A stretch of 64,000 nucleotides of DNA from Betaproteobacteria bacterium. GTDB taxonomy: Bacteria; Pseudomonadota; Gammaproteobacteria; Burkholderiales; Rhodocyclaceae. Of the stretch, positions 49,210 through 64,000 are shown piece after piece; the first letter of the stretch is position 1; the number at the start of each line of letters is the position of its first letter. Below the pieces are notes generated by a model, which worked only from the letters and a program-made list of their open reading frames with translations, did no database searches and was not told where the DNA came from. The position numbers were made by a program, and so were the translations under genes. The DNA is taken from the NCBI GenBank assembly GCA_012026885.1, contig VEPL01000029.1, positions 310,001 through 374,000 of the forward strand. Direction: 5' to 3'.

Positions 49210-50556
49210 ATGCACATTCACATTCTCGGCATCTGCGGCACCTTCATGGGCGGCGTCGCGCAACTCGCCATCGCCTCCGGCCACCGAGTCACCGGCTGCG
49301 ATGCCAATGTCTACCCGCCGATGAGCGACCAGCTGCGCGAAGCCGGCGTCGAACTGATCGAAGGCTTCGACGCCGGCCAACTGGCGCTCAAGCCCGACAT
49401 TTTCGTGATCGGCAACGCGGTTTCGCGCGGCAACCCGCTGCTCGAGGCCATCCTCGACCAGGGCCTACCCTACGTGTCCGGGCCGCAATGGCTGGCCGAG
49501 CATGTCCTGCAAGGACGCTGGGTGCTCGGGGTGGCCGGCACACACGGCAAGACGACGACCGCTTCGATGCTCGCCTGGATCCTCGAGGACGCCGGCCTGG
49601 CGCCTGGCTTCCTGATCGGCGGCGTGCCCCTGAATTTTTCCGTCTCGGCCCGCCTCGGGGAAACGCCCTTTTTCGTCATCGAGGCCGACGAGTACGATAC
49701 CGCCTTCTGCGACAAGCGCTCCAAGTTCGTCCATTACCGGCCGCGGACCGTCGTCCTGAACAACCTCGAGTTCGATCATGCAGACATATTCGCCGATATT
49801 GCCGCGATCGAGACCCAATTCCACCATCTGGTGCGCACCCTGCCGCAGTCCGGCCTTATCGTCTTCAATGCCGCCGAGGCGAGCCTGGAACGGGTCATCG
49901 AGCGCGGATGCTGGACGCCGGTCGAGCGCTTCAACGACCCGGCCGGTTACCGGGTCAGCGGCGATGACGCCCGTGGCAACCTCGTCCTGCATGGTCCGGA
50001 AGGCGTGGTCGGCCGCAGCCGCTGGCAACTCTCGGGCGAACACAACCGCGCCAACGCCTGCGCCGCCCTGCTCGCCGCCCGCCATGTCGGCGTTCCGCTG
50101 GCGCAGGGACTGGACGCGCTGTCGCGCTTCGTCAACGTCAAGCGGCGCATGGAGGTGCGCGGCGAAGTGCGCGGCGTCACAGTCTATGATGACTTCGCCC
50201 ACCATCCGACGGCGATCGCCACCACGGTTGCCGGCCTGCGCCGCAAGGTCGGGAATGCCCGCATCCTCGCAGTGCTCGAGCCACGCTCCAACACGATGAA
50301 GCTGGGGACGATGAAATCCCAGCTACCCGACAGCCTGCGCGAAACCGATGTCGCCTTCTGCTACGGCGCCAACCTGGGCTGGGACGCCCGTGCCGCACTG
50401 GCCCCGATGGGCGCGCGCGCCATCGTCGAGGACGAACTCGACGCGCTGGTCGACCAGATCGTCATCGCTGCACAACCGGGCGACCACATCCTGGTGATGA
50501 GCAACGGGGGTTTCGGCGGAATTCACGGCAAGATAATCGCCGGTTTGATGCAGTAA
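49210..50556 (+). CDS. mpl: UDP-N-acetylmuramate:L-alanyl-gamma-D-glutamyl-meso-diaminopimelate ligase
   Basis: Mpl reuses the murein tripeptide by joining it to UDP-MurNAc, part of peptidoglycan recycling. The 448-residue Mur-ligase protein starts MHIHILGICGTFMGGVAQLA, has the P-loop GTHGKTT at 110-116, FVIEADEYDTAFCDKRSKF, LNNLEFDHADIF and VYDDFAHHPTAI. The DHADIF and AHHPTAI segments fit Mpl rather than MurC. The upstream reading frame is open, but the ATG at 49210 matches the family start. Confidence 0.95.
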   Translation: MHIHILGICGTFMGGVAQLAIASGHRVTGCDANVYPPMSDQLREAGVELIEGFDAGQLALKPDIFVIGNAVSRGNPLLEAILDQGLPYVSGPQWLAEHVLQGRWVLGVAGTHGKTTTASMLAWILEDAGLAPGFLIGGVPLNFSVSARLGETPFFVIEADEYDTAFCDKRSKFVHYRPRTVVLNNLEFDHADIFADIAAIETQFHHLVRTLPQSGLIVFNAAEASLERVIERGCWTPVERFNDPAGYRVSGDDARGNLVLHGPEGVVGRSRWQLSGEHNRANACAALLAARHVGVPLAQGLDALSRFVNVKRRMEVRGEVRGVTVYDDFAHHPTAIATTVAGLRRKVGNARILAVLEPRSNTMKLGTMKSQLPDSLRETDVAFCYGANLGWDARAALAPMGARAIVEDELDALVDQIVIAAQPGDHILVMSNGGFGGIHGKIIAGLMQ

Positions 50557-50604
50557 GGGAAAATTTACCTTGCTGCGGCCGACCCGGTTTCCCGCGCGGA
50601 ATTG

Positions 50605-50637
50605 AAAAGGGCGCGGCGAGATCACCCTCCCGCGCCC
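50605..50637 (-). terminator. Rho-independent terminator after maeB
   Basis: On the minus strand an 8-bp stem (arms 50630-50637 and 50609-50616, 13-base loop) is followed by TTTTCAATT. It lies 24 bases past the maeB stop. Confidence 0.75.
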
Positions 50638-50660
50638 ACTGCGGCTTGCTGCGGCGCGGC

Positions 50661-52937
50661 TCAGCGCTCCGTTGACTCGACGACGGCCAGCGCCGTCATG
50701 TTGACCAGCCGGCGCACGGTCGCGGTGGAGGTCAGCACATGCACCGGCTTGGCGGCACCAAGCAGGATGGGGCCGATCGTGACGCCTTCGCCGCCGGTCA
50801 TCTTGATCAGGTTGTACGAGATGTTGGCGGCATCGATGTTGGGCATGACCAGCAGGTTGGCCTCGCCCTTGAGCGGCGAATCCGGATTGGCTTCGCGCCG
50901 GAGGTCCTCTGACAGCGCGGCATCGCCGTGCATCTCGCCATCGACTTCGAGTTCGCCGGCCGACATCGCCGAAACGAGACCGGCAGCCACGCCCATCTTG
51001 CGCGCCGACTCGGAGCTGCCGGAACCGAAGTTGGAATGGGACAGCAGGGCCACCTTGGGCTGGTTGCCGAAACGCTTGACCTGTTCGGCGGCGAGCAGCG
51101 TCATCTCGGCGATCTGCTCGGCCGTCGGGTTTTCGTTAACGTGCGTATCGCAGATGAACAGCGAGCGGCCCGGCAGCATCAGGTAGTTCATCGCCGCCAG
51201 CGTATTCACCCCGGCGCGCTTGCCGATGATGTTGTTGATGACGCCGAGATGATGGCTGTACTGGCCGGTCATGCCGCAGATCAGGCCATCGGCGTAGCCG
51301 AGCTTGAGCAGCATTGCGCCGATCACGGTCGGCTTGCGGCGCATCGCCTCCTTGGCGATCGAAGGCGTCACGCCACGGCGCGCCATCAGCTTGTGGTAGG
51401 CGGACCAGCACTCGCGGTAGCGCTCGTCTGATTCCGGATTGACGACGTCGAAGTCGACCCCGGGGCGGATGCGCAGCTTGGCCTTCTCGAGCCGGTGCTC
51501 GATGATTTCCGGCCGGCCGATCAGGATCGGGCGCGCAAACTTTTCCTCGATGACCACCTGCACGGCGCGAAGCACGCGTTCGTCCTCGCCTTCGCAGAAG
51601 ATGACGCGCTTGCCCTTGGCCTGGCGGGCCGCCTGGAAGATGGCGCGCATGCCGATGCCGGTGTGATAGACGAACTCGGACAGCTTGGCGCGATACGCCG
51701 CCCAGTCGGTGATCGGGCGCGTGGCGACGCCCGAGTCGATCGCCGCCTGCGCCACCGCCGGCGCGATCTTGACGATCAGGCGCGGATCGAACGGTTTCGG
51801 GATCAGGTATTCCGGGCCGAACGAGAGCACGGCCCCGGGATAGGCCATCGCCACCTCGTCGGTGACCTCGGCTTCAGCCAGTTCGGCGATGGCGCGCACC
51901 GAGGCCATCTTCATTTCTTCGGTGATGCGCGTGGCGCCGACATCGAGCGCGCCGCGGAAAATGAACGGGAAGCAGAGGACGTTATTGACCTGGTTCACGT
52001 AGTCGGAACGGCCGGTGGCGATGATCGCCTCAGGACAGACTTCCTTGACCAGCTCCGGCATGATTTCCGGCGTCGGGTTGGCCAGCGCGAAGATCATCGG
52101 CCGCGCGGCCATGGTCCTGACCATGTCCTGCTTGACGACCCCCGCGGTGGACAAGCCGAGGAAAACGTCGGCGCCGACCATGGCGTCGGCCAGCGTGCGC
52201 TTGTCGGTGTCCTGCGCATAGCGTGCCTTCGTTTCGTCCATGCCGCCCGGACGGCCGACGTAGATCACGCCCTTGGAATCGCAGACGGTGATGTTCTCGC
52301 GCTTGACGCCGAGGTCGCACCACAGGTTGAGACAGGAAATCGCGGCCGCGCCGGCACCGGAACAGACAACCTTGATCTCGTCGATCTTCTTGCCGACGAC
52401 CTTGAGGCCGTTGAGCATGGCAGCGGCCGAAATGATGGCGGTGCCATGCTGGTCATCGTGGAAGACCGGGATGCTCATCCGCTCCTTGAGCTTCTGCTCG
52501 ATGTAGAAGCACTCCGGCGCCTTGATGTCTTCCAGATTGATGCCGCCCAGCGTCGGCTCGAGGGCGGCGATCATGTCGATCAGCTTGTCCGGATCATTCT
52601 CGGCGAGTTCGATGTCGAAGACGTCGATGCCGGCGAACTTCTTGAACAGGCAGCCCTTGCCCTCCATGACCGGCTTGGCGGCGAGCGGGCCGATGTTGCC
52701 GAGGCCGAGGACGGCCGTACCGTTGGTAACGACGCCCACCAGGTTCGCGCGCGAGGTGTATAGGGCAGCCGTCGCCTCGTCCTCGACAATCGCGTCGCAG
52801 GCGGCGGCAACCCCCGGGGAATAGGCAAGTGCAAGGTCGCGCTGGTTGGTCAGGCCCTTGGTCGGGCGGACGGAAATCTTGCCCGGCGTGGGCAGGCGAT
52901 GGTACTCGAGTGCGGCTTCGCGCAGGTCTTTTTCCAC
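50661..52937 (-). CDS. maeB: NADP-dependent malic enzyme (MaeB type, with phosphotransacetylase-like domain)
   Basis: MaeB decarboxylates malate to pyruvate, making NADPH. The 758-residue protein has the malic enzyme part first (residues about 1-430: [54 protein letters not shown]) and a PTA-like C-terminal domain (about 435-758, [31 protein letters not shown]). In MaeB this domain binds acetyl-CoA for allosteric control and is not catalytic. The start is GTG at 52937 behind GGGAG. Confidence 0.97.
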
Positions 52938-53160
52938 GGTAGCTCCCGGAGATTCGACGATTCTGGAAAGCCGCGTAGGTTACTCCAAAGACCGTCGTGG
53001 CGAAAGTGCTGTAATTATGAATAACGGGCAAGCAGCTGCGTCCCGGCCAACTCCCTCTGCCGGAACAGGGTGCATTGCTGCACGGAATGCATTACATTGA
53101 CCAGACCAACACCAAAAACGCATCAAACCCTAAAGCGGACACGGAACGAGGGAGGACGCC

Positions 53161-53598
53161 ATGCGCAACATCATCTTCGCCATCATCGCGCTGCTGGCGG
53201 CGCATTCGGCCGCCACCCAGGAAGCGGCCATCGGCTACGTGAAGACGGTCGCCGGCGAGGCGACGGTCACTACCGCCGGCAAGGCGGTCAAGGCCGAAGC
53301 CGGAACCCCGGTCCAGATCGGCAGCGTCTTGAAGACCGGCGCCAAGGGCACGATGGGCATCACCTTCCGGGACGAAACGGTGATGTCCTTCGGCCCCAGC
53401 ACCGAGTTGACCGTCGACGAATACCTCTACGCCCCGAGCCAGGGCAAACTCAAGATGGGCAGCAAGCTCTCGAAAGGCAGCATGAACTACGTCTCCGGCG
53501 TCATCGCGAAGTTGCAGCCCGATGCCGTGTCGGTCACGACTCCGACCGGCACGATCGGCGTGCGCGGCACCCATTTCGTCGTCCGCGTCGAGGAATGA
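53161..53598 (+). CDS. FecR-domain periplasmic protein
   Basis: A 145-residue secreted protein. The signal peptide is about 1-19 (IIFAIIALLAAHSAA), then a FecR beta domain with AIGYVKTVAGEATV, TGAKGTMGITFRDETVMSFGP and the terminal signature TPTGTIGVRGTHFVVRV. In FecR itself this fold links a receptor to an anti-sigma factor; here there is no sigma factor nearby. The neighbours are an OmpA lipoprotein gene four bases downstream, a CHASE2 cyclase and an HD-GYP sensor, so an envelope-sensing role is likely. GGGAGGA lies before the ATG. Confidence 0.85.
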   Translation: MRNIIFAIIALLAAHSAATQEAAIGYVKTVAGEATVTTAGKAVKAEAGTPVQIGSVLKTGAKGTMGITFRDETVMSFGPSTELTVDEYLYAPSQGKLKMGSKLSKGSMNYVSGVIAKLQPDAVSVTTPTGTIGVRGTHFVVRVEE

Positions 53599-53602
53599 CG
53601 TC

Positions 53603-54193
53603 ATGAGCCGGCTGACCACCCTTGCCGCCGCAGTGCTCGCCGCCGTGGGGCTCTCCGCTTGCGCCAACAAGTCTTACGTCGCACTGCTCGACAATCCCGA
53701 CGGCGGTACCGGCAAGGTCTACGTCAAGGGGGCCAAGGGCGAACAAGTCATCGACAAGGCCGGCAGCGGCGCGCCGCTCGACGGTTCGCAAAAGGCCGCC
53801 GCGATCCCGCCCGGGCAGATCCAGCGCGATTTCGGCGAAGCCATGGCCGCCCGCCCGACGCTGCCGAAGCGCTACCTCCTTTATTTCGAATCCGGCGGAA
53901 CGAAACTGACCGCCGAATCAAACGCCCTGATCCCGCAGATCATCGCCGACGCGAAGCAGCGCCCCGGAGTCGACGCGTCGATCATCGGGCACACCGACAC
54001 GGTCGGCAAGGCGGACGCCAACACCGCGCTGGCATTGCGCCGCGCCCAGACGGTGGCGGACCAGATCAAGGCCCAGGGCCTGACGGTAGTGGCACTCGTC
54101 GTCGAGTCGCATGGCGAGAGCAACCTGCTGGTTGCGACACCGGACGAGACGCCGGAGCCGCGCAACCGCCGCGTCGAAATCTCGCTCCGCTGA
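53603..54193 (+). CDS. OmpA-like peptidoglycan-associated lipoprotein
   Basis: A 196-residue lipoprotein. The lipobox is LSAC with the lipidated Cys at 20, followed by a short spacer domain and a C-terminal OmpA fold (about 95-196) with FESGGTKLTAES, IIGHTDTVGKADANTALALRRA and EPRNRRVEISLR, which binds diaminopimelate of peptidoglycan. It follows the FecR gene by four bases and should tether the FecR-like system to the wall. Confidence 0.86.
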   Translation: MSRLTTLAAAVLAAVGLSACANKSYVALLDNPDGGTGKVYVKGAKGEQVIDKAGSGAPLDGSQKAAAIPPGQIQRDFGEAMAARPTLPKRYLLYFESGGTKLTAESNALIPQIIADAKQRPGVDASIIGHTDTVGKADANTALALRRAQTVADQIKAQGLTVVALVVESHGESNLLVATPDETPEPRNRRVEISLR

Positions 54194-54199
54194 AGGGTC

Positions 54200-54221
54200 G
54201 ACCGCACCCGCCGGTGCGGTC
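54200..54221 (+). terminator. Strong hairpin between the OmpA and cyclase genes
   Basis: A perfect 9-bp stem (54200-54208 with 54213-54221, 4-base loop) lies in the 32-base gap between two converging genes. On the plus strand TGCCTCACTTTTC follows, only partly T-rich, so termination may be imperfect or bidirectional. Confidence 0.6.
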
Positions 54222-54225
54222 TGCC

Positions 54226-56376
54226 TCACTTTTCGCTCATCACGATCAGGTCGCCGCTGGCGCCGGAATGCAGCCGGCCCAGATGCAGGCCGACCAGCGG
54301 GTCGTCCGGAAAATCCTTTGCCAGCGCCTCGAAACGGGCCGCCGCGTCGGACTGCCCCTCGGCCATGACGGCATAGGCGGCACGGTAATCGGCGAGCGGT
54401 GCCCGCGCGATGGCAGGATCGTCGACCACCGGCTCGAACACCGCGAGCGCCTGCGTCTTGCCCTTGAGGACGAGACGTCCGACCGGACGGACCACGGCAT
54501 CGGGGCAATCACGCAGGGTGTCCTCGGAAACGCACATGCGCGTGCCGAGGTGCTTGTTCACGCTCTCGAGCCGGGCGGCGGTGTTCACCGGATCGCCCAG
54601 CGCCCGGTAGTCGAAGATGTTGGAGCCACCGAAGTTGCCGACGATGACTTCGCCACCGTGCACGCCGATGCGCGTCTTGCCGAAGGCGATGCCCTTCGCC
54701 TGCAGGTCGCGGCTGTAGCGGCTGGCGAACGCGTCCATCTCGAGCGCGCAGGCGAGCGCCCGGCTGCGGTGGTCGGCCTGCGGCACCGGCGCCGAGAACA
54801 TGATGGCGACCGCATCGCCAACGATGCGGTCGAGCGTGCCGTCATGCTTGAAGGCGATGGCGATCATCTCGTCGAGGTAGGTGTTGAGCAACGCCACCGC
54901 CTCGCCCGGGTCGATCTTTTCCATCAGGCTGGTGAAGCTGGCGAGGTCGGTGAAGATGAAGCTGCACTCCTGGCGGCGACCGCCCAGTTCCATCGCCTCG
55001 GGGTGGTCGACCAGGTGCGAGACGCGGTTCGGCGACACATAGCGGGCGAAGGCTTCCTTGATCCAGCGCTGCTCGCGCTCGCTGGCGAAGTGGCGGACGA
55101 CGCTGCACAGGACGAAGGTAAAGAGGGCGACGATGACCGGCGTCGCCGTGTCGATCAGCAGCCCTTCGGCTGAAAAGGCGTGCCAGCCTCCGTAAAGGAT
55201 GGCACCGACTACAGCTAGTGCTGCTCCGGCGGCGAACAGGGCGCGCACGCGCAGCGTCAGGAAACCGACGCCGAGGCCGGCAACGACGAGGAGCAGGGCC
55301 TCGAGCCCGCGCGCCCAGCCCGGCCGCTGCAGGTAATGGCCGGTCAGGATCTGCTCGAGCGCCTGGGCGTGGGCCTCGACGCCGGGCATGACGCGGCCGA
55401 GCGTGTTGAAGCGCAGGTCCATCAGGCCCTGCGCCGAACTGCCGACGAGGATCAGGTGGCCCTCGACAAGTTCCTGCGGCACCTTCCCCGCCATGACCTG
55501 CCACGCCGGCAGGTAGCGCCCCGGCACCGGCGGCGAGTAATGCACCCAGATCTCGCCCTGCGGCGTCGTCGGGATGGTCACGTCGGCAATGCGCATTTCC
55601 GCCAGGCCGGCACCCGGGCCGGCACTCTTCAGGATGACGTTGGGGACGCCCTGGCCGACCCGTAGGGTCTCAGCGACCAGCGTCGACACCGGCTGCCCGG
55701 CGACCTGCAGGACCAGCGGCACGCGCCGCACGACACCGTCGCCATCCGGGACGAAGGTGAGAGCGCCATTGCCCTTGGCGGCGGCAGACAACGCCGGCAG
55801 GCTGCCGACGATGCCATCGAAGGGATGCAGCCAGCGTCCGGGGGGTTCGCCGGCGAAGATGAAGCGCCCCATGTTGGGCGGCACCTCGAGGGCATCGCCG
55901 CCCGATTTGGCCTCCTTTCCGCGGTCGACCGCAAAACCGACGACGACATCGCCGCGCGCGACGCTTTCGGCAAAGACCCGGTCGTGGTCGGGCAGGGCAA
56001 CGAGCGCCTCGCGCAAGCCGCCCTTGATCTGCCAGAGGTCGGCCGCCGCCAGCGGCGAAGTGCGGTCCGGTTCGGCGAAGATGACGTCGAAGCCGACCGC
56101 AGCCGCCCCCGCAGCGCCGAGGCGGTCGACCAGCTCGGCCAGTCGCGTGCGCGGCCACGGCCACTGGCCGAGACGGGCGAGGCTCTCGTCGTCAATGTCG
56201 ACGATGCGCACCGGCGCCTCGGCGAAGGTACGCGGCTGCCAGCGCTGGTACTGGTCGAACAGGCTGTTGCGCAGGGACTGCAGCACCAGCGCGTCGCCAA
56301 AGAGCAGGAAGACCCCGACGGCGACGGGCAGGAAGGGCAGCAGCCAGGTTATACGCAGCGCGCTCTTGCGGGCCAT
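54226..56376 (-). CDS. CHASE2-domain class III adenylate/guanylate cyclase
   Basis: A 716-residue inner-membrane signalling enzyme. An N-terminal anchor (about 10-30) is followed by a periplasmic CHASE2 sensor (about 30-355, VRIVDIDDESLARLGQWPWPR and FDVIFAEPDR), three membrane helices (about 357-430) and a cyclase domain (about 465-635). The metal Asps are D477 (FTDLASFTSLME) and D521 (GDAVAIMF); ALGDPVNTAARLES is also intact. The usual purine-recognising Lys before the second Asp is Arg 517 here. It is convergent with the FecR-OmpA pair and divergent from the HD-GYP gene. The product, cAMP or cGMP, is not decided by the sequence. Confidence 0.93.
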   Translation of the reverse strand: MARKSALRITWLLPFLPVAVGVFLLFGDALVLQSLRNSLFDQYQRWQPRTFAEAPVRIVDIDDESLARLGQWPWPRTRLAELVDRLGAAGAAAVGFDVIFAEPDRTSPLAAADLWQIKGGLREALVALPDHDRVFAESVARGDVVVGFAVDRGKEAKSGGDALEVPPNMGRFIFAGEPPGRWLHPFDGIVGSLPALSAAAKGNGALTFVPDGDGVVRRVPLVLQVAGQPVSTLVAETLRVGQGVPNVILKSAGPGAGLAEMRIADVTIPTTPQGEIWVHYSPPVPGRYLPAWQVMAGKVPQELVEGHLILVGSSAQGLMDLRFNTLGRVMPGVEAHAQALEQILTGHYLQRPGWARGLEALLLVVAGLGVGFLTLRVRALFAAGAALAVVGAILYGGWHAFSAEGLLIDTATPVIVALFTFVLCSVVRHFASEREQRWIKEAFARYVSPNRVSHLVDHPEAMELGGRRQECSFIFTDLASFTSLMEKIDPGEAVALLNTYLDEMIAIAFKHDGTLDRIVGDAVAIMFSAPVPQADHRSRALACALEMDAFASRYSRDLQAKGIAFGKTRIGVHGGEVIVGNFGGSNIFDYRALGDPVNTAARLESVNKHLGTRMCVSEDTLRDCPDAVVRPVGRLVLKGKTQALAVFEPVVDDPAIARAPLADYRAAYAVMAEGQSDAAARFEALAKDFPDDPLVGLHLGRLHSGASGDLIVMSEK

Positions 56377-56526
56377 TGTTTTTCCCCTTGGTCGGATTCC
56401 GGCACGGCAATGAGCTTAACGCATTGCGCAAATGACGCAGATACCTTTTACAGCGCTGCGGGCGAATGCTAACGTACTGGACATGTCCGTCGCTCGCACG
56501 GACCCGGGTGCGCAAGGGAGAAGTCC

Positions 56527-59511
56527 ATGCTGAAGCTGAACATCCGTTACCAGAACTGGGTCATGGCCAGCGTCGTCGTGCTGGTCGTTCTGGTCGCCAC
56601 CATCTTCCTGATCACGGTGCATCGCACCTTCAACCAGCTGGCCGAGGAGAGCGCCGCCAGCCGCTTCACGCTGATCGGCCAGCAGGCCGACGCCAAACTC
56701 GAGACCCTGATCCTCCAGAGCGGGCGTTTCGTCACCGCGCAGTCGCGCGTCGGACTCGACCATTTCGTCATGGGCGGCCACATCAACGGCCAGGACCTGG
56801 TCCAGACGTTCCTCGGCTCGCTCGAGGCGGACCAAACCCTTTATTCGCACTACTTCGGCCTCGCCAACGACGAATTCCTGCAAGTCATTGCCATCCGCGA
56901 GGACCTGCGCATCATGGCCGCGCTGAAGGCGCCCGAAGGCAGCTACTTTACGGTCCGCCGCGTCGAAAATGCGCTCGGCGGCGAGCGCAGCGAACGCTGG
57001 GAATTCCTCGACCGCGACCGCAAGCCGATCGGCAACCGTAACCAGACGACCGAATTCCGGCCGACCACCCGTCCCTGGTACAACGGCGCCTTGGAGCGCA
57101 ATGCGCTGACCGTCGCTGCGCCTTATATCTTCGCGTCCTCGGGCGAACTTGGCGTTACCGTGGCCACCCCACTGCCCGGCAAGGCCGGCGCGGTCGGCAC
57201 CGACATCCTGCTCCAGTCACTCAATCAATTCCTGAGCCAGCTACGCATCTCGCCGAACGGCGCCATCGCGCTCCAGGATCCCCAGGGGCGCATCCTTGCC
57301 TTCCAGGGCAGCGGCCCGCGTTTCAGCGGCCAGAACTTCGCGCCCCTGACGCCGGCCGAGAAGATCGACAACCCCTACCTCACGGTGCTCAGGGACACCC
57401 AAAGCATCGCCGAGTCGCGCGTGCTTGCCCTGGACGACGGCGACAAGTACGTTGTCAGCCAGTACCGCTCGGAGCCGATCGCCGGCAGTCCGTTCCGGAT
57501 CACCATCCTCGCCCCGGTCAGCGACTTCTCCGGCGGTTTCGACAAGGCGCGCGACAGTGTCATGATCGCCGCGCTGGTCGTGCTGCTGCTGACACTGCCC
57601 CTCGCCTTCCTCGGCTCGCGCCGCGATGCCCGGACGCTCGCCAACCTGGCCCGGGATTCGGAGCGCATCAAGCGCCTCGATTTCTCGGGCGAACCCAGCA
57701 AGGCGGACACCTTCGTCTATGAAGTGAAGGCCCTGGCCGACGCACAAGCCGTGATGCAGACGTCGATCCAGGAACGCACGGCACAGCTCGAGCTCGCCCA
57801 GCAAAAACTGGCCATGCTGGTCGAGAACGGCCTGTTGTTCTCGAGCGAAAAGGATCGCTCCAAGCTGCTCCGGCACATCCTGTTCGGCGGCAAGAACATC
57901 GTGCCGTGCCAGGCGGCGACCCTGTTCCTGAAAACCGAGCGCGACACCTTGGTCTTCGCGATGCGCACCAGCGACGACCCCTTGCCGACCAACGAAATCC
58001 CCCTTTACCACAGCGACACCGGCCACCCCAACGAACGCTTCGTGGCTCCCTATGTGGCGATCCACAACCAGACGGTGGTCATCGACGACGTCTACACCGA
58101 AACGCGCTTCGACCTCTCGGGTACCAAACGCTTCAGCGAGGAATCGGGGTTCCGCACCGTGTCCATGCTGACCGTGCCGCTATCGCCGCAGGAAGGCGAG
58201 GTCATCGGCGTCCTGCAACTGCTCAACGCCACCGACCCGGCGACCGGCGCCGTGATCCCGTTCGCGCCGGAAATCGCCGGCTACGTCGAAGGCCTGGCCG
58301 CGCAGGCGGCTGTCGCACTGCAGAACCAGAACCTCGTCGAGGCGCAGAAGAACCTGATGGACGCGCTGATCAAGATTATCGCCGGCTCGATCGACGCCAA
58401 GAGCGCCTATACCGGCGGCCACTGCGAACGCGTGCCGGAGCTCGCGATCATGCTCGCCGAGGAAGCGTGCAAGGTCGACAGCGGCCCCCTCGCCGACTTC
58501 CGTTTCACCACCGACGACGAGTGGCGCGAGTTCCGCATCGGCGCTTGGCTGCACGACTGCGGCAAGGTGACGACGCCCGAATACGTCGTCGACAAGGCGA
58601 CCAAGCTGGAAACCATCTACAACCGCATCCACGAGGTACGCACCCGCTTCGAGGTGCTGCTGCGCGATGCCGAAATCGAGCGCCTGGCAGCCATCCACGA
58701 AGGCGGCGTGCCGCGCGCCGATGCCCATGCCCGCTTCGCCGAGCGCAAGGCGCAACTGCTCGACGATTTCGCCTTCATTGCCGAATGCAACATCGGCGGC
58801 GAATTCATGGCTCCCGAGCGGGTCGACCGCATGAAGCGCATCGCCAGCGAAACCTGGCAGCGCAATTTCGACGACCGGCTTGGCCTCTCGCACGAGGAGT
58901 TGCTGCGCTACACCAATGAGCCGGTCGCCGAAATGCCGGCCACCGAGCACCTGCTCGCCGACAAGCCGCACCACGTCGTACCGCGCACGCCAAACGCCGC
59001 GCTCGACGAGAAGTACGGCTGGAAAGTGAAGATCCCGGAAAATCTCTACAACTTCGGCGAGGTCTACAACATGGCCGTCGCCCGCGGCACCCTCTCCGAG
59101 GAAGAACGCTTCAAGATCAACGAGCACATCATCCAGTCCATCGTGATGCTCGACCGGCTGCCGCTGCCCAAGCACCTGAAGCGTATCCCCGAATACGCCG
59201 GCACCCACCACGAGACGCTGATCGGCACCGGCTACCCGCGGAAACTTACCGCCGACGAGTTGTCGATCCCGTCCCGGATCATGGCCATCGCCGACATTTT
59301 CGAGGCACTGACCGCTTCCGACCGCCCCTACAAGAAGGCCAAGACGCTGTCCGAGTCGATCAAGATCCTGTCTTTCTTCAAGAAGGACAAGCACATCGAC
59401 CCGGTCCTCTTCGACCTATTCCTCAGTTCGGGCATCTATCGCCGCTATGCCGAGCGCTACCTGAAACCTGAGCAGGTCGACACGGTCGACATCGCGCCCT
59501 ACCTGGGCTGA
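56527..59511 (+). CDS. Sensor protein with periplasmic Cache-like, GAF and HD-GYP domains
   Basis: A 994-residue protein predicted to degrade cyclic di-GMP. TM1 (about 13-33) and TM2 (about 346-364) bound a dCache-like periplasmic sensor; a coiled stretch and a GAF domain (about 425-602) follow. The HD part is H676-D677 in LHDCGKVTTPEYVVDKATKL, and the GYP part is IGTGYP at 899-904, next to H894 H895 E896. These halves are separated by roughly 220 residues rather than about 60, so a large helical insert sits in the catalytic domain. GGGAG precedes the ATG at 56527. Confidence 0.92.
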   Translation: MLKLNIRYQNWVMASVVVLVVLVATIFLITVHRTFNQLAEESAASRFTLIGQQADAKLETLILQSGRFVTAQSRVGLDHFVMGGHINGQDLVQTFLGSLEADQTLYSHYFGLANDEFLQVIAIREDLRIMAALKAPEGSYFTVRRVENALGGERSERWEFLDRDRKPIGNRNQTTEFRPTTRPWYNGALERNALTVAAPYIFASSGELGVTVATPLPGKAGAVGTDILLQSLNQFLSQLRISPNGAIALQDPQGRILAFQGSGPRFSGQNFAPLTPAEKIDNPYLTVLRDTQSIAESRVLALDDGDKYVVSQYRSEPIAGSPFRITILAPVSDFSGGFDKARDSVMIAALVVLLLTLPLAFLGSRRDARTLANLARDSERIKRLDFSGEPSKADTFVYEVKALADAQAVMQTSIQERTAQLELAQQKLAMLVENGLLFSSEKDRSKLLRHILFGGKNIVPCQAATLFLKTERDTLVFAMRTSDDPLPTNEIPLYHSDTGHPNERFVAPYVAIHNQTVVIDDVYTETRFDLSGTKRFSEESGFRTVSMLTVPLSPQEGEVIGVLQLLNATDPATGAVIPFAPEIAGYVEGLAAQAAVALQNQNLVEAQKNLMDALIKIIAGSIDAKSAYTGGHCERVPELAIMLAEEACKVDSGPLADFRFTTDDEWREFRIGAWLHDCGKVTTPEYVVDKATKLETIYNRIHEVRTRFEVLLRDAEIERLAAIHEGGVPRADAHARFAERKAQLLDDFAFIAECNIGGEFMAPERVDRMKRIASETWQRNFDDRLGLSHEELLRYTNEPVAEMPATEHLLADKPHHVVPRTPNAALDEKYGWKVKIPENLYNFGEVYNMAVARGTLSEEERFKINEHIIQSIVMLDRLPLPKHLKRIPEYAGTHHETLIGTGYPRKLTADELSIPSRIMAIADIFEALTASDRPYKKAKTLSESIKILSFFKKDKHIDPVLFDLFLSSGIYRRYAERYLKPEQVDTVDIAPYLG

Positions 59512-59542
59512 GAGCGGTCCGCGAGCCCGCCGGAGGCCAGGC

Positions 59543-60400
59543 ATGCCGATCGACGGCCCGGTTCCCGGCTGGCTGCTGTCGACGGTCGCCGTGGCGACCA
59601 TCTTCACGGTGATGTTCGACCTCGGCCTGGCCATCGCCCCCGGCGATTTCCGGCGCGCCTGGGAGCGGCCGGGTCCGCTGCTGAAAAGCCTGTTCGCCAT
59701 CCTGATTGCCGTCCCGGCGCTAGCGCTGGTCGTCGTCAGGGCTGTCGACCTTGCCCGGCCGGTCGAGATCGGCATCGTCCTGATGGCGATCTCGCCGGGC
59801 GCCCCGGTCGCATTGCGCCGCTCGCTCGCCGCCGGCGGTGAGCGCGGTTTCGCCCCGGCGCTGCAGATCGCGGTGGCGATCCTCGCCGTTTTCGCCATCC
59901 CCCTCTGGATCGCCGGGCTCGACGAGGTCTATGGCGCCAGCGCCGCCGTCGACCCGCGCCATCTCGCCCGCCAGGTCTTCATCGCGCAACTGCTACCGCT
60001 CGGACTGGGCATCGCCCTCATCCGCCTGCGCCCGGCGTGGGCGGCCGCGCTCGCCGCCTACAGCGGCCGGATGGCGACCGTCCTGCTGCTGGCGCTGGCC
60101 GGCCTCGCGCTCGTCGCGGTCTGGAAGCCGGTGCAGGACGCCGGGCTGCACGCCGCCGGCGCGGTCGTGCTCATCACCGCCGGCGCCCTGGCCTGCGGCC
60201 ACCTGCTCGGCGGGCCCGAGCCGGGTACGCGCACGGCAGCGGCTGTCCTCACCGCTGCCCGCAACCCGGGGCTGGCGATGGTCGTGGCGACGGTCAACCA
60301 CGCCCAACCGCTGGTCATCGCCACCATCCTCGCCTACCTGCTGTTCGCCGCGCTGACCGTGCTCCCCTACGTGTTCTGGCGCCGGCGTCAGAAGCGATAG
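59543..60400 (+). CDS. Bile acid:sodium symporter (BASS) family transporter
   Basis: A 285-residue membrane protein with eight to nine helices. The first module FTVMFDLGLAIAPGDFRRAW and the later stretch AAAVLTAARNPGLAMVVATVNH (landmarks FDLGLAI and RNPGLA) are family hallmarks. BASS proteins carry organic anions such as bile acids, pantoate or pyruvate; the substrate here is unknown. GGAGG lies upstream of the ATG. Its last 13 bases overlap the end of the TonB receptor gene on the other strand. Confidence 0.85.
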   Translation: MPIDGPVPGWLLSTVAVATIFTVMFDLGLAIAPGDFRRAWERPGPLLKSLFAILIAVPALALVVVRAVDLARPVEIGIVLMAISPGAPVALRRSLAAGGERGFAPALQIAVAILAVFAIPLWIAGLDEVYGASAAVDPRHLARQVFIAQLLPLGLGIALIRLRPAWAAALAAYSGRMATVLLLALAGLALVAVWKPVQDAGLHAAGAVVLITAGALACGHLLGGPEPGTRTAAAVLTAARNPGLAMVVATVNHAQPLVIATILAYLLFAALTVLPYVFWRRRQKR

Positions 60401-62475
60401 GCGAGCGTCAGCCGGGCGCTGCGCGGCTCGGTCGGATGGATATGGCGGTCGAACGCCGGCGCCGCCTCGCCGGGCAATTGCGATTGGTACCAGTACTCGA
60501 TGTCGTTGGCCTGGCGGTTGAACAGGTTGTAGACATCGAGCGCGAGCCGTACCTTCGGCGTGAATTTGTAGCCGATGCGCAGGTTCGTCAGCGCCGAGGA
60601 TTGCGAGCGCACCGAGTTGTCCTCGACCAGCGGGCGTGGGCCGAAGTAGCGCAGGCGCAGCGCACCGAACCAGGGGCCGAGGTTATCGACGGTGACGCCG
60701 AGGTTGGCCGTCGCCACGATGGCGCCGGGGATGTAGTCGCCCTCCGGAGCCGACTCGCTGAAGCGGGCGTGCGACCAGGCGAGGTCGGCATCGAAGGCCA
60801 GCCAGGCATTGGCGACCCAGGTGTTGGTCCATTCGGCACCGCAGCGGCGCGACGGACGCGACGGCTCGGTCGTGCCGGCATCACCGACGAAGAGTAGCTC
60901 GGAATCGAGGTTCAGCTGCCAGACGGCCAGCGTCGTCTTCCAGCCCGCCAGCGGCTCGCTGCGCAGCCCTATCTCGTAGCCCGTGGTTCGCACCAGCGGT
61001 GAAACCCGGCTGACCGGCGTCACGCCGTCGGCCGGATCGACGCGGATGGTCGTGCCGCGCGCATCGTTGGAATGGAAGCCCTGCCCGTAGTTGGCGTACA
61101 ACTCGGTACGCTGCCAGGGCCCGAAGATCAGGGCCAGCTTGGGCGTCACGACGTGGTCGCTCGCCTTGCCCGAATTGGCCGGCAGGCTGGCGTCGACCGT
61201 GAAATCGTAGGCATCGCCGCGCAGGCCGAGCTGCGAGCGGAACCAGTCGGTCCACCGCGTCTCGTTCTGCGCCCACAACGATACGCTGCGCTGGGTGACC
61301 GCATCGGCGCGCACCGTGTTCCAGGTGATGCGGCGCTGCGTGTTGTCGAGGGTGACCGGGTCGATGCGGTCGACTCGCGCGTCGACGCCGAAGGCATTAG
61401 CCACCTCGAATTCGCCCCAGCGGTCGAACAGGGTATGCGCCAGCGAGAAGCCGCCGGCCTGGCGCCGTTCGCCCTGCTTGAACTGGTCGCCGGTGGCGCA
61501 GGTGCCGGTGGCCGCATAGTCGTTCAGGCAGTACTGGAAATTGGACCAGAGGTCGAGGCCGGAACGCAACCACCATGCGCTCGCCCGGCTCTGGCTGTTG
61601 TCGCCGCGCCGCGCCCATTCGGCCGCAAGGCTGTAGCGGAAGGCGTCGCCGCCGGTGCTGTCGTCGAGCGTGCCATAGCGGCCGACGCGGCCGCCATCGA
61701 TGGCGCGCCTGGCGACCTGGTCGGTCGAAGTCCATTGGCCGCGATAGGCCATGCCGGTCAGCGCGAAGCCGTCCTCGGCGCTGCCCTGGCTGTAGCGCAG
61801 CACACCGTTCAGCTTGCGGTAGTTCTCCGGAACCTCCCACGGTCCGTCGTTGTGGAAAAACTCGAGCGCATAGAGCAGGTGCCCGGGCCCCGCATCGGGC
61901 GAGCCGGCGAGCAGGGCGCGCGCGTAACCGTTCCGGCCGGCGGTCAGCTGGGCGAGCGTGCCGTCGAGGTAACGCCGGTAGTCGATGCGGGCGACGCCGA
62001 CCGACGAGAAATCGCCTTCATCGGCGTAGTAGGGTCCCTTGCGGTAACGGATGCGGTCGACCAGTTCGGGGATCAGGAAATTGAGGTCGGTGTAGCCCTG
62101 CCCGTGGGCGTGGGTGGGCATGTTGACCGGCACGCCGGCGACCCAGGTCGCGAAATCGGTGCCGTGGTCGAGATTGAAGCCGCGCAGGAAATACTGGTTC
62201 GCCTTGCCGTCGCCGGCATGCTGGGTGACGATCAGGCCCGGCACCATCTCCAGCGCTTCGCCCGGGCGCAGCAGCGGCACCGCCTCGAGGCGCTGGCCGG
62301 AGACGACCCCCTCGCTGCCGGCCGTCGCCAGGCCCTCGAGGTTCCCGGCCCGGGCGCGGATCTCCACGGCCGACAGTTCGGTGGTCTCGTGTGCCCCCGC
62401 CAGCCCGGCCAGGACAAAATATGACGAAATTCCAATTCGTCTTAACGTAACCCGCCACGGCACGATGGGCGCCAC
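60388..62475 (-). CDS. TonB-dependent outer membrane receptor, probably for nickel/cobalt
   Basis: A 695-residue receptor. A signal peptide (about 1-28, ending LAGLAGA) leads into a plug domain with EMVPGLIVTQHAGDGKANQ and the motif RGFNLDHGTDFATW, and a 22-strand barrel ending with the aromatic LTLAYRF. The TonB box is unclear. The THAHGQGY stretch offers histidines. The start is GTG at 62475 behind GGAAAG. It lies 13 bases after a NiCoT permease gene, which suggests nickel or cobalt uptake by guilt by association; an organic ligand is the alternative. Confidence 0.86.
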   Translation of the reverse strand: MAPIVPWRVTLRRIGISSYFVLAGLAGAHETTELSAVEIRARAGNLEGLATAGSEGVVSGQRLEAVPLLRPGEALEMVPGLIVTQHAGDGKANQYFLRGFNLDHGTDFATWVAGVPVNMPTHAHGQGYTDLNFLIPELVDRIRYRKGPYYADEGDFSSVGVARIDYRRYLDGTLAQLTAGRNGYARALLAGSPDAGPGHLLYALEFFHNDGPWEVPENYRKLNGVLRYSQGSAEDGFALTGMAYRGQWTSTDQVARRAIDGGRVGRYGTLDDSTGGDAFRYSLAAEWARRGDNSQSRASAWWLRSGLDLWSNFQYCLNDYAATGTCATGDQFKQGERRQAGGFSLAHTLFDRWGEFEVANAFGVDARVDRIDPVTLDNTQRRITWNTVRADAVTQRSVSLWAQNETRWTDWFRSQLGLRGDAYDFTVDASLPANSGKASDHVVTPKLALIFGPWQRTELYANYGQGFHSNDARGTTIRVDPADGVTPVSRVSPLVRTTGYEIGLRSEPLAGWKTTLAVWQLNLDSELLFVGDAGTTEPSRPSRRCGAEWTNTWVANAWLAFDADLAWSHARFSESAPEGDYIPGAIVATANLGVTVDNLGPWFGALRLRYFGPRPLVEDNSVRSQSSALTNLRIGYKFTPKVRLALDVYNLFNRQANDIEYWYQSQLPGEAAPAFDRHIHPTEPRSARLTLAYRF

Positions 62476-62488
62476 GCTTTCCGGTGCC

Positions 62489-63298
62489 TCAGGCGGTTGC
62501 CGGCCGCCGCGTGATACGGACCGCGAACGCGAAGCTGGCGGCGATCAGCACGACCAGGGCCGCGCCGAAGGCCAGTTCCTTGCCGTCGCTCCACGCGTCG
62601 ACGGCCGGCGAGAGCAGGCGGGCGGCGCCGAAGGCGGCGACCAGGAGGCTGATGCCCGAGACGACCAGCCCCATGACGCGCGAGGCGACCAGCGCGATCT
62701 GGTCGGCCCGTGCGATCAGGCGGGCGATCCAGAAACCGTTGATGCCGTCGGTCAGCAGCATGCCGGCGATGAACAGGCCGGCGAGCAGCAGCGCCTCGCG
62801 CCAGCCGCCGAACTGGGTCGCGGTGAGCGCGAAGAAGGCCGCCTGCGACAGCGTGTCGAAGGAGAGCGCGAATAGGGCGCCGACCAGCGCGACGAGGGCG
62901 GGATGCCCGGCGTGGCGCAGGCGGCCGAGCCAGCGCCCCTTGACGCCGACCGGGGCGACCAGCTCGTCGGGCGCCGCGCGCAGCACGGCGCCCAGGTTGA
63001 GCACGCCGAGCGCGACGAGGAAGCCGATCGAGATCAGCGCGCCGACCGTGGCGAACCAGCCCGGCACTGCCCAGTGTCCGGCCAGCGCCGACACGCCGAG
63101 CGCGATGGCCATGACCACGGCGCCATGCCCGAGCGAGAACAGGGTGCCGCACCAGCGCGCCAGCCGCGGCCGCGCGCGGGCATTGCAGCGCGTGAGGCCG
63201 TCGATGGTCGCCAGATGGTCGGCATCGAAGCCGTGTTTCATGCCGAGCACGAAGGTCAGGATGAGCAGCGAAAGCCAGTCGGCGGGCAGGTTATCCAT
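62489..63298 (-). CDS. hoxN: High-affinity nickel/cobalt permease (NiCoT family, HoxN-like)
   Basis: A 269-residue membrane protein of the nickel/cobalt transporter family. The signature H22-x4-D27-H28 (KHGFDADHLATID) in helix II is intact, and LFSLGHGAVV matches the second motif. It is shorter than Ralstonia HoxN (351 residues) but has the expected helices. The ATG is at 63298. It follows a HupT/HoxJ-like kinase gene and precedes a TonB receptor, so nickel supply for hydrogenase or urease fits. A near-consensus sigma-54 promoter precedes it. Confidence 0.9.
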   Translation of the reverse strand: MDNLPADWLSLLILTFVLGMKHGFDADHLATIDGLTRCNARARPRLARWCGTLFSLGHGAVVMAIALGVSALAGHWAVPGWFATVGALISIGFLVALGVLNLGAVLRAAPDELVAPVGVKGRWLGRLRHAGHPALVALVGALFALSFDTLSQAAFFALTATQFGGWREALLLAGLFIAGMLLTDGINGFWIARLIARADQIALVASRVMGLVVSGISLLVAAFGAARLLSPAVDAWSDGKELAFGAALVVLIAASFAFAVRITRRPATA

Positions 63299-63328
63299 GG
63301 GGGCGTATGAAGTTGTCGCAAGTCATCA

Positions 63329-63345
63329 TACAAGAGCCGTGCCAA
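63329..63345 (-). promoter_or_regulatory. Sigma-54 (-24/-12) type promoter before hoxN
   Basis: On the minus strand TTGGCACG-G-CTC-TTGTA matches the consensus YTGGCACGrNNNTTGCW at all but one defined position (T for C in the -12 GC). The predicted start site lies about 20 bases before the hoxN ATG. The -12 mismatch lowers confidence. Confidence 0.55.
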
Positions 63346-63398
63346 GGTCGTGCCCACTGATTTTCATCGCTTTTTCGGGGTCGACCGCAACCGGGTGG

Positions 63399-64000
63399 TC
63401 AGCTGCTTTCCAGGGGCAGTGAAAGGATGAATTCCGCCCCGCCGCCGGGCCGGTTGGCGGCCGCCAGGCGACCGCCGTGCCGGTCGACGATGCCGTAACT
63501 GATCGACAACCCGAGCCCGGTGCCCTGGCCGACCGGCTTGGTCGTGAAGAAGGGCTCGAACAGGCGGCCGAGATGCTCGGGGGCGATGCCCGGCCCGTCG
63601 TCGGCGAAGCACAGTTCGACCATGCCGCCCGCCACGGCACCCGTCACCGTCAGGTGGCCGGCCGGCTGCGCGGCGGTCGCGTCGCAGGCGTTCTGCACCA
63701 GGTTCATCACCACCTGCTGCAGTTGCCCCGACGAACCCGGGCAACGCAGTCCGGGCGGCAGGTCGACGGCGACGGCGAAACGGGCCGGCGCGCTCTGCGT
63801 CACCCAGCGTACCGAGCGCTCGACCACCTCGTTGAGATCGACGCGCTCGGGCGTCGCCTTGTCCACCGCCGAGAAGCGCTTGAGGGCGTCGACGATGTCG
63901 CGCGTGCGCTCGGCGCCTTCGATCATGCCGTCGATCAGCGGCGTCATGTCGGCGAGCACGCGATCGATGCGCAGTTCGGCGCGCAGTGCCGCCAGACCGG
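63399..64000 (-). CDS. Sensor histidine kinase, HupT/HoxJ-like (C-terminal part)
   Basis: The last 200 residues of a histidine kinase; the N-terminal part lies beyond the right edge. The visible segment holds a dimerisation-helix remnant (GAERTRDIVDALKRFSAVDK), the N-box MNLVQNACDATA, the G1 box DDGPGIAPEHLGRLFEPFFTTKP and G2 GQGTGLGLSISYGIV. The ERTRDIVDALKRFSAVD wording and the neighbour hoxN fit the hydrogen-sensing HupT/HoxJ kinases that act with NtrC-like HupR/HoxA regulators. The conserved His itself lies outside the window, so the assignment is tentative. Confidence 0.8.
   Translation of the reverse strand, partial: GLAALRAELRIDRVLADMTPLIDGMIEGAERTRDIVDALKRFSAVDKATPERVDLNEVVERSVRWVTQSAPARFAVAVDLPPGLRCPGSSGQLQQVVMNLVQNACDATAAQPAGHLTVTGAVAGGMVELCFADDGPGIAPEHLGRLFEPFFTTKPVGQGTGLGLSISYGIVDRHGGRLAAANRPGGGAEFILSLPLESS

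Follow-up and report, generated by a model that had tools for sequence, protein, structure and literature searches.

A locus of FecR, OmpA lipoprotein, CHASE2 cyclase and HD-GYP genes that looks like an envelope-reading nucleotide signaling module

Do four neighboring signaling genes of a Betaproteobacteria bacterium form one system and, if so, what would that system do? The question is raised by a 64,000-nucleotide stretch of contig VEPL01000029.1 (assembly GCA_012026885.1, positions 310,001 to 374,000), hereafter the window, in which a sequence-only reading had picked out genes for a FecR-domain protein, an OmpA lipoprotein, a CHASE2 cyclase and an HD-GYP protein. Pfam searches and direct reading confirmed the genes, their domains, positions and strands. 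The gene for the FecR-domain protein (145 amino acids (aa), 53161–53598, + strand; PF04773, 8e-10) forms a tight pair with that for an OmpA/Pal-like lipoprotein (196 aa, 53603–54193, + strand; PF00691, 1e-13, domain at residues 94–189; lipobox Cys20), which starts 4 bases past the FecR stop codon. The gene for the CHASE2 receptor cyclase (716 aa, 54226–56376, − strand; PF05226, 4e-58; Guanylate_cyc PF00211, 2e-16) converges on this pair across a 9-bp inverted repeat with a 4-base loop (54200–54221, read by eye). A divergent intergenic region of 150 bp (56377–56526, direct reading) separates it from the gene for a Cache-like/GAF/HD-GYP protein (994 aa, 56527–59511, + strand; GAF PF01590, 4e-8; HD_5 PF13487, 2e-40), whose match to dCache_1 (PF02743, E 4e-6) is below the curated cut-off. 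We find the four genes to be genuine and to belong together, with a grouping far beyond chance. The module looks like one that reads the state of the envelope and alters nucleotide messengers, resembling the YfiBNR system of Pseudomonas but built from other parts.

The first evidence comes from relatives of the window cyclase. Some 85,000 species genomes (∼85,000) were scanned for them, the best 80 of 85 loci were used, and the six-frame proteins of these loci were searched with the window proteins, HD-GYP being counted at E up to 1e-3. At least 5.5 kb was present on both sides of the cyclase in 53 of the 80 loci; the other 27 were short-flanked. Within 5.5 kb of the CHASE2 cyclase, the fully flanked loci contained FecR in 52 cases, OmpA in 47, HD-GYP in 32 (including a weak match, 3e-11, in locus L012) and all three in 27; the corresponding numbers for the short-flanked loci were 17, 18, 10 and 8. 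The FecR matches in the 80 loci all fell close to CHASE2 (70 within 5.5 kb, 0 beyond). When neighbors were clustered without prior choice, the four families ranked first, even with FecR and OmpA undercounted because overlapping longer frames displaced some of them. The next two clusters reached 19 and 17 loci, and the example frame of the first of these runs antisense over the FecR–OmpA genes of locus L015. All four genes were present in 35 loci and in 11 distinct orders, one of which (L012) depends on the weak HD-GYP match; in L013 and L018 they lie on a single strand. Azonexus hydrophilus (L015) and Rhodocyclus gracilis (L011) are examples of species that carry the complete set. Five genes that flank the module in the window were matched in none of the 80 loci. 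At least nine linkage changes were placed on a CHASE2 tree with long branches (six of its 56 rows left out of the count); this tree was limited to 56 rows, 19 of them linked, because split domain matches were dropped.

The link between FecR and CHASE2 extends across the phylum. In a phylum sample of 249 genomes, CHASE2 was present in 160. From this sample, 40 genomes were taken, one per family and all chosen for CHASE2, from families other than that of the window; they gave 98 CHASE2 and 129 FecR matches. FecR was located within 6 kb of 34 of the 98 CHASE2 genes, where gene numbers and genome sizes would predict 1.23, and these cases were spread over 22 of the 40 families, with 27 of the 34 pairs on one strand. 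In the 22 genomes with a pair, FecR was near 26 of 41 CHASE2-cyclases, compared with 1 of 109 class III cyclases of other kinds and none of 150 dCache_1 places (controls drawn from the best 150 places of longer lists). Because these control genomes were chosen for holding a FecR–CHASE2 pair, 34/98 is the rate to quote. Co-occurrence beyond chance in other genomes, the check that the sequence-only reading had proposed for itself, was thus borne out, and a link from the envelope to nucleotide messengers is still the best reading of the locus. The outputs of the 34 FecR-linked CHASE2 proteins were a cyclase in 25 cases, a histidine kinase in 5, GGDEF plus EAL in 3 and HD-GYP in 1. Since the output domains vary and the control cyclases and dCache places are not near FecR, FecR associates with the CHASE2 sensor rather than with the output enzyme. 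In a mirror-tree comparison (n = 42), FecR distances tracked those of CHASE2 beyond the cyclase domain (partial r 0.36); as proof of FecR–CHASE2 contact this comparison was rejected as not decisive. A broader role for FecR as a periplasmic partner of CHASE2 receptors in general, whatever their output, is conceivable, and we rate it somewhat below an even chance. If true, it would supply the missing input of CHASE2, whose recognized factors were stated as unknown in 2016 (PMC5192318, accessible part).

The cyclase itself is composed of a hydrophobic N-terminal segment, the CHASE2 domain, two further hydrophobic segments (residues 355–382 and 404–432) and a class III cyclase domain (468–642), as judged from Pfam and hydropathy; its structure model has a predicted local distance difference test (pLDDT) score of 89.7. 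With a CHASE2 domain, membrane segments and the two metal-binding aspartates (Asp477 and Asp521, present in 78 of 78 filled alignment rows), it has all the elements of a CHASE2 class III receptor cyclase. Adenylate cyclases carry Lys and Thr/Ser/Asp at the two base-reading positions. In the window cyclase these positions, located by alignment with solved cyclases, are instead occupied by Arg517 (74 of 78 filled rows) and Arg591 (73 of 77). A wider set of 62 CHASE2-cyclase frames, from the 40 genomes and a second CHASE2 locus of the window's own genome, had Lys in 41 and Arg in 7 at the first position, and Thr in 35 and Arg in 6 at the second; those of the 80 loci that are Rhizobiales relatives read Lys/Ser instead of Arg/Arg. 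A sequence search against solved structures gave 42 matches at the cyclase end, with or without the preceding membrane segment, and the matches listed by a structure comparison aimed at the CHASE2 domain were to the cyclase domain. In three of the related loci (L035, L063 and L078), the CHASE2 cyclase is broken into two or three frames by true decay or assembly error.

The FecR protein has a single FecR domain preceded by a signal-like N-terminal helix, with no anti-sigma domain (Pfam, structure model with pLDDT 92.8), and is predicted to be soluble and periplasmic. Its partner has the features of an OmpA/Pal-like lipoprotein with peptidoglycan-binding residues: in 64 aligned sequences, Cys20 (just past the hydrophobic start), Asp132 and Arg147 are at least 90% conserved, Asp132 being equated with YfiB Asp102 by motif rather than by alignment. 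NCBIfam gives YiaD, PA1041, Pal and YfiB as the best-matching families, none of them reaching its cut-off, and the protein is not a member of the YfiB family. Conserved stretches were also observed upstream of the OmpA domain. When this N-terminal arm (residues 21–96; 53663–53890, + strand) was used alone as a query in 24 genomes, hand-picked from the 41 in use, it gave 11 matches, all of them on the same contig as a FecR match and no more than ∼4.5 kb from it. Ten were in OmpA-type proteins. The eleventh, L220 (1448–7024, − strand), is an 1859-aa protein in which FecR (136–251) is followed by the arm (267–329), and it may connect the arm with surface proteins resembling adhesins. Among the 80 loci, all 69 arm frames were also OmpA frames. 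The gene fusion and the neighborhood lead us to propose the arm as a putative FecR-binding element. The window's own genome also encodes a paralogous FecR–OmpA pair with the same arm on another contig (C16:315413–316026; L087 7111–8195), near a rhodanese-type protein. In four loci of Pseudorhodoferax and Variovorax (L038, L044, L045 and L051), a much larger FecR protein precedes CHASE2 and HD-GYP follows it; the OmpA lipoprotein was not found in these loci. The FecR protein of L045 has 608 aa, and the only Pfam domain in it is FecR.

Two types of HD-GYP protein were distinguished by the span from HD to HHE, a long core of 217–218 residues and a short core of 164–171, and the window protein, with 218, is of the long type. 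The HD residues and metal ligands of an HD-GYP phosphodiesterase are in place: His632, His676, Asp677 and His867 are found in 40 of 40 long-core sequences, and His894, His895 and Asp923 in 39 of 40, the remaining row being a gap; we take these residues to be metal-binding. The HD-GYP signature is HHExxDGxGYP. Its Asp, which is present in the solved HD-GYPs 4mcw and 5z7c, is replaced in 40 of 40 aligned long-core proteins and kept in 5 of the 12 short-core proteins examined. Long-core HD-GYPs were paired with an Arg/Arg cyclase in 34 of 37 cases from the 80 loci (the other three V/R or H/R, by motif pattern), and short-core HD-GYPs with a Lys-type cyclase and without FecR in all seven readable cases of the 40-genome set. 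From these residues, the Arg/Arg cyclase and the HD-GYP protein lacking the signature Asp may have shifted specificity together, and use of an unusual nucleotide by the module is quite improbable. The two cyclic nucleotides to which the sequence-only reading had connected the envelope are thus unproven, given Arg/Arg at the base-reading positions and the loss of the signature Asp. The genome encodes 17 GGDEF and 17 cyclic nucleotide monophosphate (cNMP)-binding domains, and therefore both messenger networks can exist in it. A cNMP-binding GAF domain is marked by the NKFDE motif; such a domain was rejected for the window protein, in which N567 and F579 are kept and the Lys after N567 occurs in 1 of 40 sequences.

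CHASE2 and GAF-HD-GYP are fused in one protein in two other genomes (L152 and L204). In L152, a FecR–OmpA pair lies before the fusion protein on the same strand. In L204 (3744–11705, − strand), a CHAT-TPR protein of 1236 aa is encoded near the fusion protein, and it is unusual for a receptor to be paired with such a caspase-like protein; a FecR match in the latter, obtained with an in-house profile, was not borne out by Pfam and was not counted. A third candidate, L203, contains only CHASE2 and GAF, and the contig ends there. The second CHASE2 cyclase of the window's own genome, outside the window (C11:421923–425716; L086 9516–13720), has a short-core GAF-HD-GYP gene directly after it on the same strand, with no FecR. 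Comparable pairs of a CHASE2 cyclase and a short-core GAF-HD-GYP protein were found in other genomes.

How might the four proteins work together? In YfiBNR, according to the accessible parts of PMC4887326 and PMC3375315, activated outer-membrane YfiB takes periplasmic YfiR off the inner-membrane cyclase YfiN; YfiB needs peptidoglycan binding for this, and its N-terminal loop forms part of the YfiR contact. By analogy, the four genes could encode one envelope-spanning signaling module working as a YfiBNR-like relay, a reading to which we give an even chance. The target of the small periplasmic FecR protein would be CHASE2 in the inner-membrane cyclase. Lipid would anchor the OmpA lipoprotein in the outer membrane, the OmpA domain would anchor it in peptidoglycan, and its N-terminal arm would bind FecR. 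The state of the envelope would decide whether the lipoprotein pulls FecR off CHASE2 or presents FecR to it, and the availability of FecR to CHASE2 would switch the output of the cyclase. The HD-GYP protein would be a second output enzyme of the same pathway that would turn the message over or couple it to cyclic di-GMP (c-di-GMP). Both contacts of FecR, with CHASE2 and with the arm, are putative, as are the sign of control, the stimulus and the nucleotides. In this branch, the OmpA arm may couple FecR to the wall, giving an envelope-state relay with an origin separate from that of YfiBNR.

Several observations weigh against this relay. No match links FecR to YfiR. HD-GYP is missing from 21 of the 53 fully flanked loci, and across 41 genomes only 4 of 32 long-type HD-GYP places are near CHASE2, compared with 12 of 25 short-type places (2 of the 25 being partial matches of either type). 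No FecR lies within 6 kb of 64 of the 98 CHASE2 genes, although some contigs end close by, and FecR is therefore not obligatory. In the mirror-tree comparison, FecR distances also track those of the cyclase domain, at a partial r of 0.27; CHASE2 exceeds this by 0.09, inside the subsample range of −0.04 to 0.25, a small and uncertain preference. The paralogous FecR–OmpA pair in L087 has no CHASE2 in the 16 kb read, and both CHASE2 genes of this genome are on C11. In Sinorhizobium meliloti, the FecR gene SMc02177 adjoins the CHASE2 cyclase gene SMc02176 (CyaD1) by locus tag; in the accessible part of PMC5498481, SMc02177 is a target of the cyclic AMP (cAMP) regulator Clr and is not required for perception of the plant signal, a result that redundancy among FecR genes may explain.

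FecR and the OmpA lipoprotein were first read as supplying or holding the ligand of CHASE2, in other words as a co-receptor by which a ligand from outside is caught and passed on. A relay from outside to CHASE2 does exist, as the CHASE2 cyclases of S. meliloti depend on NsrA, an outer-membrane protein, for sensing a protein signal (PMC13001267 and PMC7529298, accessible parts), and this co-receptor would also suit the occurrence of FecR with CHASE2 of several outputs and the TPR, Ig-like or LysM domains borne by FecR partners elsewhere in a few cases. We nevertheless regard it as unlikely, as the window FecR consists of a single small domain for which no ligand is known, the lipoprotein belongs to a type that binds the wall, SMc02177 is dispensable for perception as far as the accessible text of PMC5498481 goes, and the YfiBNR-like relay fits the anatomy at least as well.

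FecR and the lipoprotein could instead be outputs, encoded by genes that are controlled by the nucleotide of the cyclase and kept close for co-regulation. The accessible part of PMC5498481 describes SMc02177 in such terms, as a gene that, outside the plant, is activated by way of the CHASE2 cyclases and Clr and that acts in the response. Co-regulation by a nucleotide is at odds, however, with the occurrence of FecR beside CHASE2 receptors whose output is a kinase, GGDEF-EAL or HD-GYP (9/34), with its near absence (1/109, again from the best 150 places) beside other class III cyclases, and with the single strand shared by 27 of the 34 pairs. No CRP-type palindrome (≤2 mismatches) was found at the locus or in 56377–56526 (4 in the whole window, 12 expected by chance), and a CRP-type site upstream of the four genes was rejected, but the effector's own site may differ from the CRP type. 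Taken together, we consider this explanation improbable.

A third possibility concerns the HD-GYP protein, which might be a counter-enzyme that removes the product of the cyclase rather than a c-di-GMP enzyme, making this a one-messenger module. The pairing of long cores with Arg/Arg cyclases (34/37) and of short cores with cyclases having Lys at the first position (7/7 readable) would suit such a role, as would the absence of the signature Asp from all 40 long-core proteins and the phosphodiesterase, said to act on cAMP, of Campylobacterota clusters (PMC9239204, accessible part). On the other hand, the split in core type follows two family branches and therefore may be one event, the metal ligands are those of HD-GYP enzymes, the Asp is kept in 5 of 12 short-core partners examined, and the genome has 17 GGDEF domains, which makes a counter-enzyme rather doubtful. 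Adjacency merely through descent or chance is very improbable: related Betaproteobacteria and Pseudomonas contribute many of the 80 loci, but the 35 four-gene loci in 11 orders (one on the weak HD-GYP match), the FecR–CHASE2 pairs in 22 families, the flanking genes matched in 0 of 80 loci and the at least nine linkage changes on the 56-row tree (six rows uncounted) stand against it, and chance neighbors were rejected on the linkage counts, the control sensors and cyclases and the non-recurring flanking genes.

The repeat at 54200–54221 is possibly a shared terminator of the convergent genes; it is absent from the listing of a terminator scan, in which terminator-like sites were at chance level. 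The accompanying promoter scan gave two promoter-like sites, both within the HD-GYP frame. No RNA element reached the gathering score in window positions 50000–64000. On one strand, and close together (60388–63298, − strand), lie genes for a TonB-dependent receptor and a NicO-type nickel/cobalt transporter, which may be a metal uptake pair and were matched in 0 of 80 related loci. As parts of the module, the TonB receptor, NicO, SBF, malic enzyme-PTA and Mpl genes were rejected on this same count of 0/80. Plasmid searches with FecR matched 3 records (38.8% identity, 59% of the query covered), and those with the cyclase found relatives in 583 records, the best at 39%.

FecR domains are best known from FecI-FecR-FecA systems, from which the window module differs in three parts. 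Its FecR protein has 145 aa, with an N-terminal helix and a FecR domain and without an anti-sigma domain. Eight window proteins, those encoded from malic enzyme through NicO, were scanned, and neither an extracytoplasmic function (ECF) nor any other sigma factor was found among them; the search for sigma factors went no farther. The sequence-only reading had seen neither a sigma factor nor a TonB receptor here; the former holds for these eight proteins, but a TonB-dependent receptor is encoded at 60388–62475 (− strand), 0.9 kb past the HD-GYP gene. As it consists of plug and barrel, with no separate signaling domain (Pfam), and was matched in 0 of 80 loci, it is no conserved receptor, and a classic FecR–sigma factor system was rejected on all three counts. 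The FecR domain also shares its fold, with a weak sequence match, with the retention module of secreted LapA-type adhesins (5ix9), and the protein that joins FecR to the arm (L220) is 1859 aa long; the window FecR is instead a free 145-aa protein and not the end of an adhesin.

Other parallels have FecR beside CHASE2 receptors, which is already known for some groups (PMC9239204 and PMC5192318, accessible parts). The suggestion that no such pathway had been described therefore holds only for the exact four-gene set, of which no description was found in the literature searched, to the extent of its accessible texts and with subscription journals mostly outside its reach. In Campylobacterota, a CHASE2 adenylate cyclase, a phosphodiesterase and a FecR-domain outer-membrane protein are likewise clustered, with a TPR protein where the window has the OmpA lipoprotein (PMC9239204; compared by description only, from a brief mention without mechanism in the accessible part). 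In the Burkholderia BiofilmReg operon, a FecR protein bearing wall-binding LysM adjoins a CHASE2 histidine kinase (PMC5192318). There, however, LysM lies inside the FecR protein and the output is a histidine kinase and response regulator, and the accessible text names no OmpA lipoprotein or HD-GYP. A CHASE2 cyclase gene also follows mtxA (PMC4439547, accessible part). In the CyaD1/CyaD2/CyaK-Clr-NsrA system of S. meliloti, as far as the accessible texts describe it, CHASE2 cyclases have an outer-membrane partner and a FecR gene lies beside CyaD1, but NsrA is a beta-barrel rather than an OmpA lipoprotein, SMc02177 is dispensable for perception, and the Rhizobiales relatives have Lys/Ser in place of Arg/Arg. 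On pSymB (CP090106.1; L216 6001–9034), a FecR gene converges on a relative of the window cyclase (36.7% over residues 18–663) in a window-like layout; this cyclase may be CyaK.

The closest likeness in mechanism would be to YfiBNR (TpbB) of Pseudomonas aeruginosa, which, in the accessible parts of the sources, likewise combines an OmpA/Pal-like lipoprotein, a periplasmic protein and an inner-membrane cyclase. The window has a FecR domain (Pfam: FecR only) where YfiBNR has YfiR, CHASE2 and a class III cyclase where YfiN has a periplasmic PAS domain, HAMP and GGDEF, and an additional HD-GYP gene; sequestration is putative here. As the YfiR family and the GGDEF output are absent, the window module falls outside YfiBNR. 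CHASE2 is common among bacterial sensor domains, and little is known of its direct signal. A FecR partner would be a concrete, testable input for it, and the arm of the OmpA lipoprotein would add another testable contact, on the side of the cell wall. If the proposed relay is true, unrelated parts have been assembled into the logic of YfiBNR a second time, and the outputs here are a cyclase and an HD-GYP protein.

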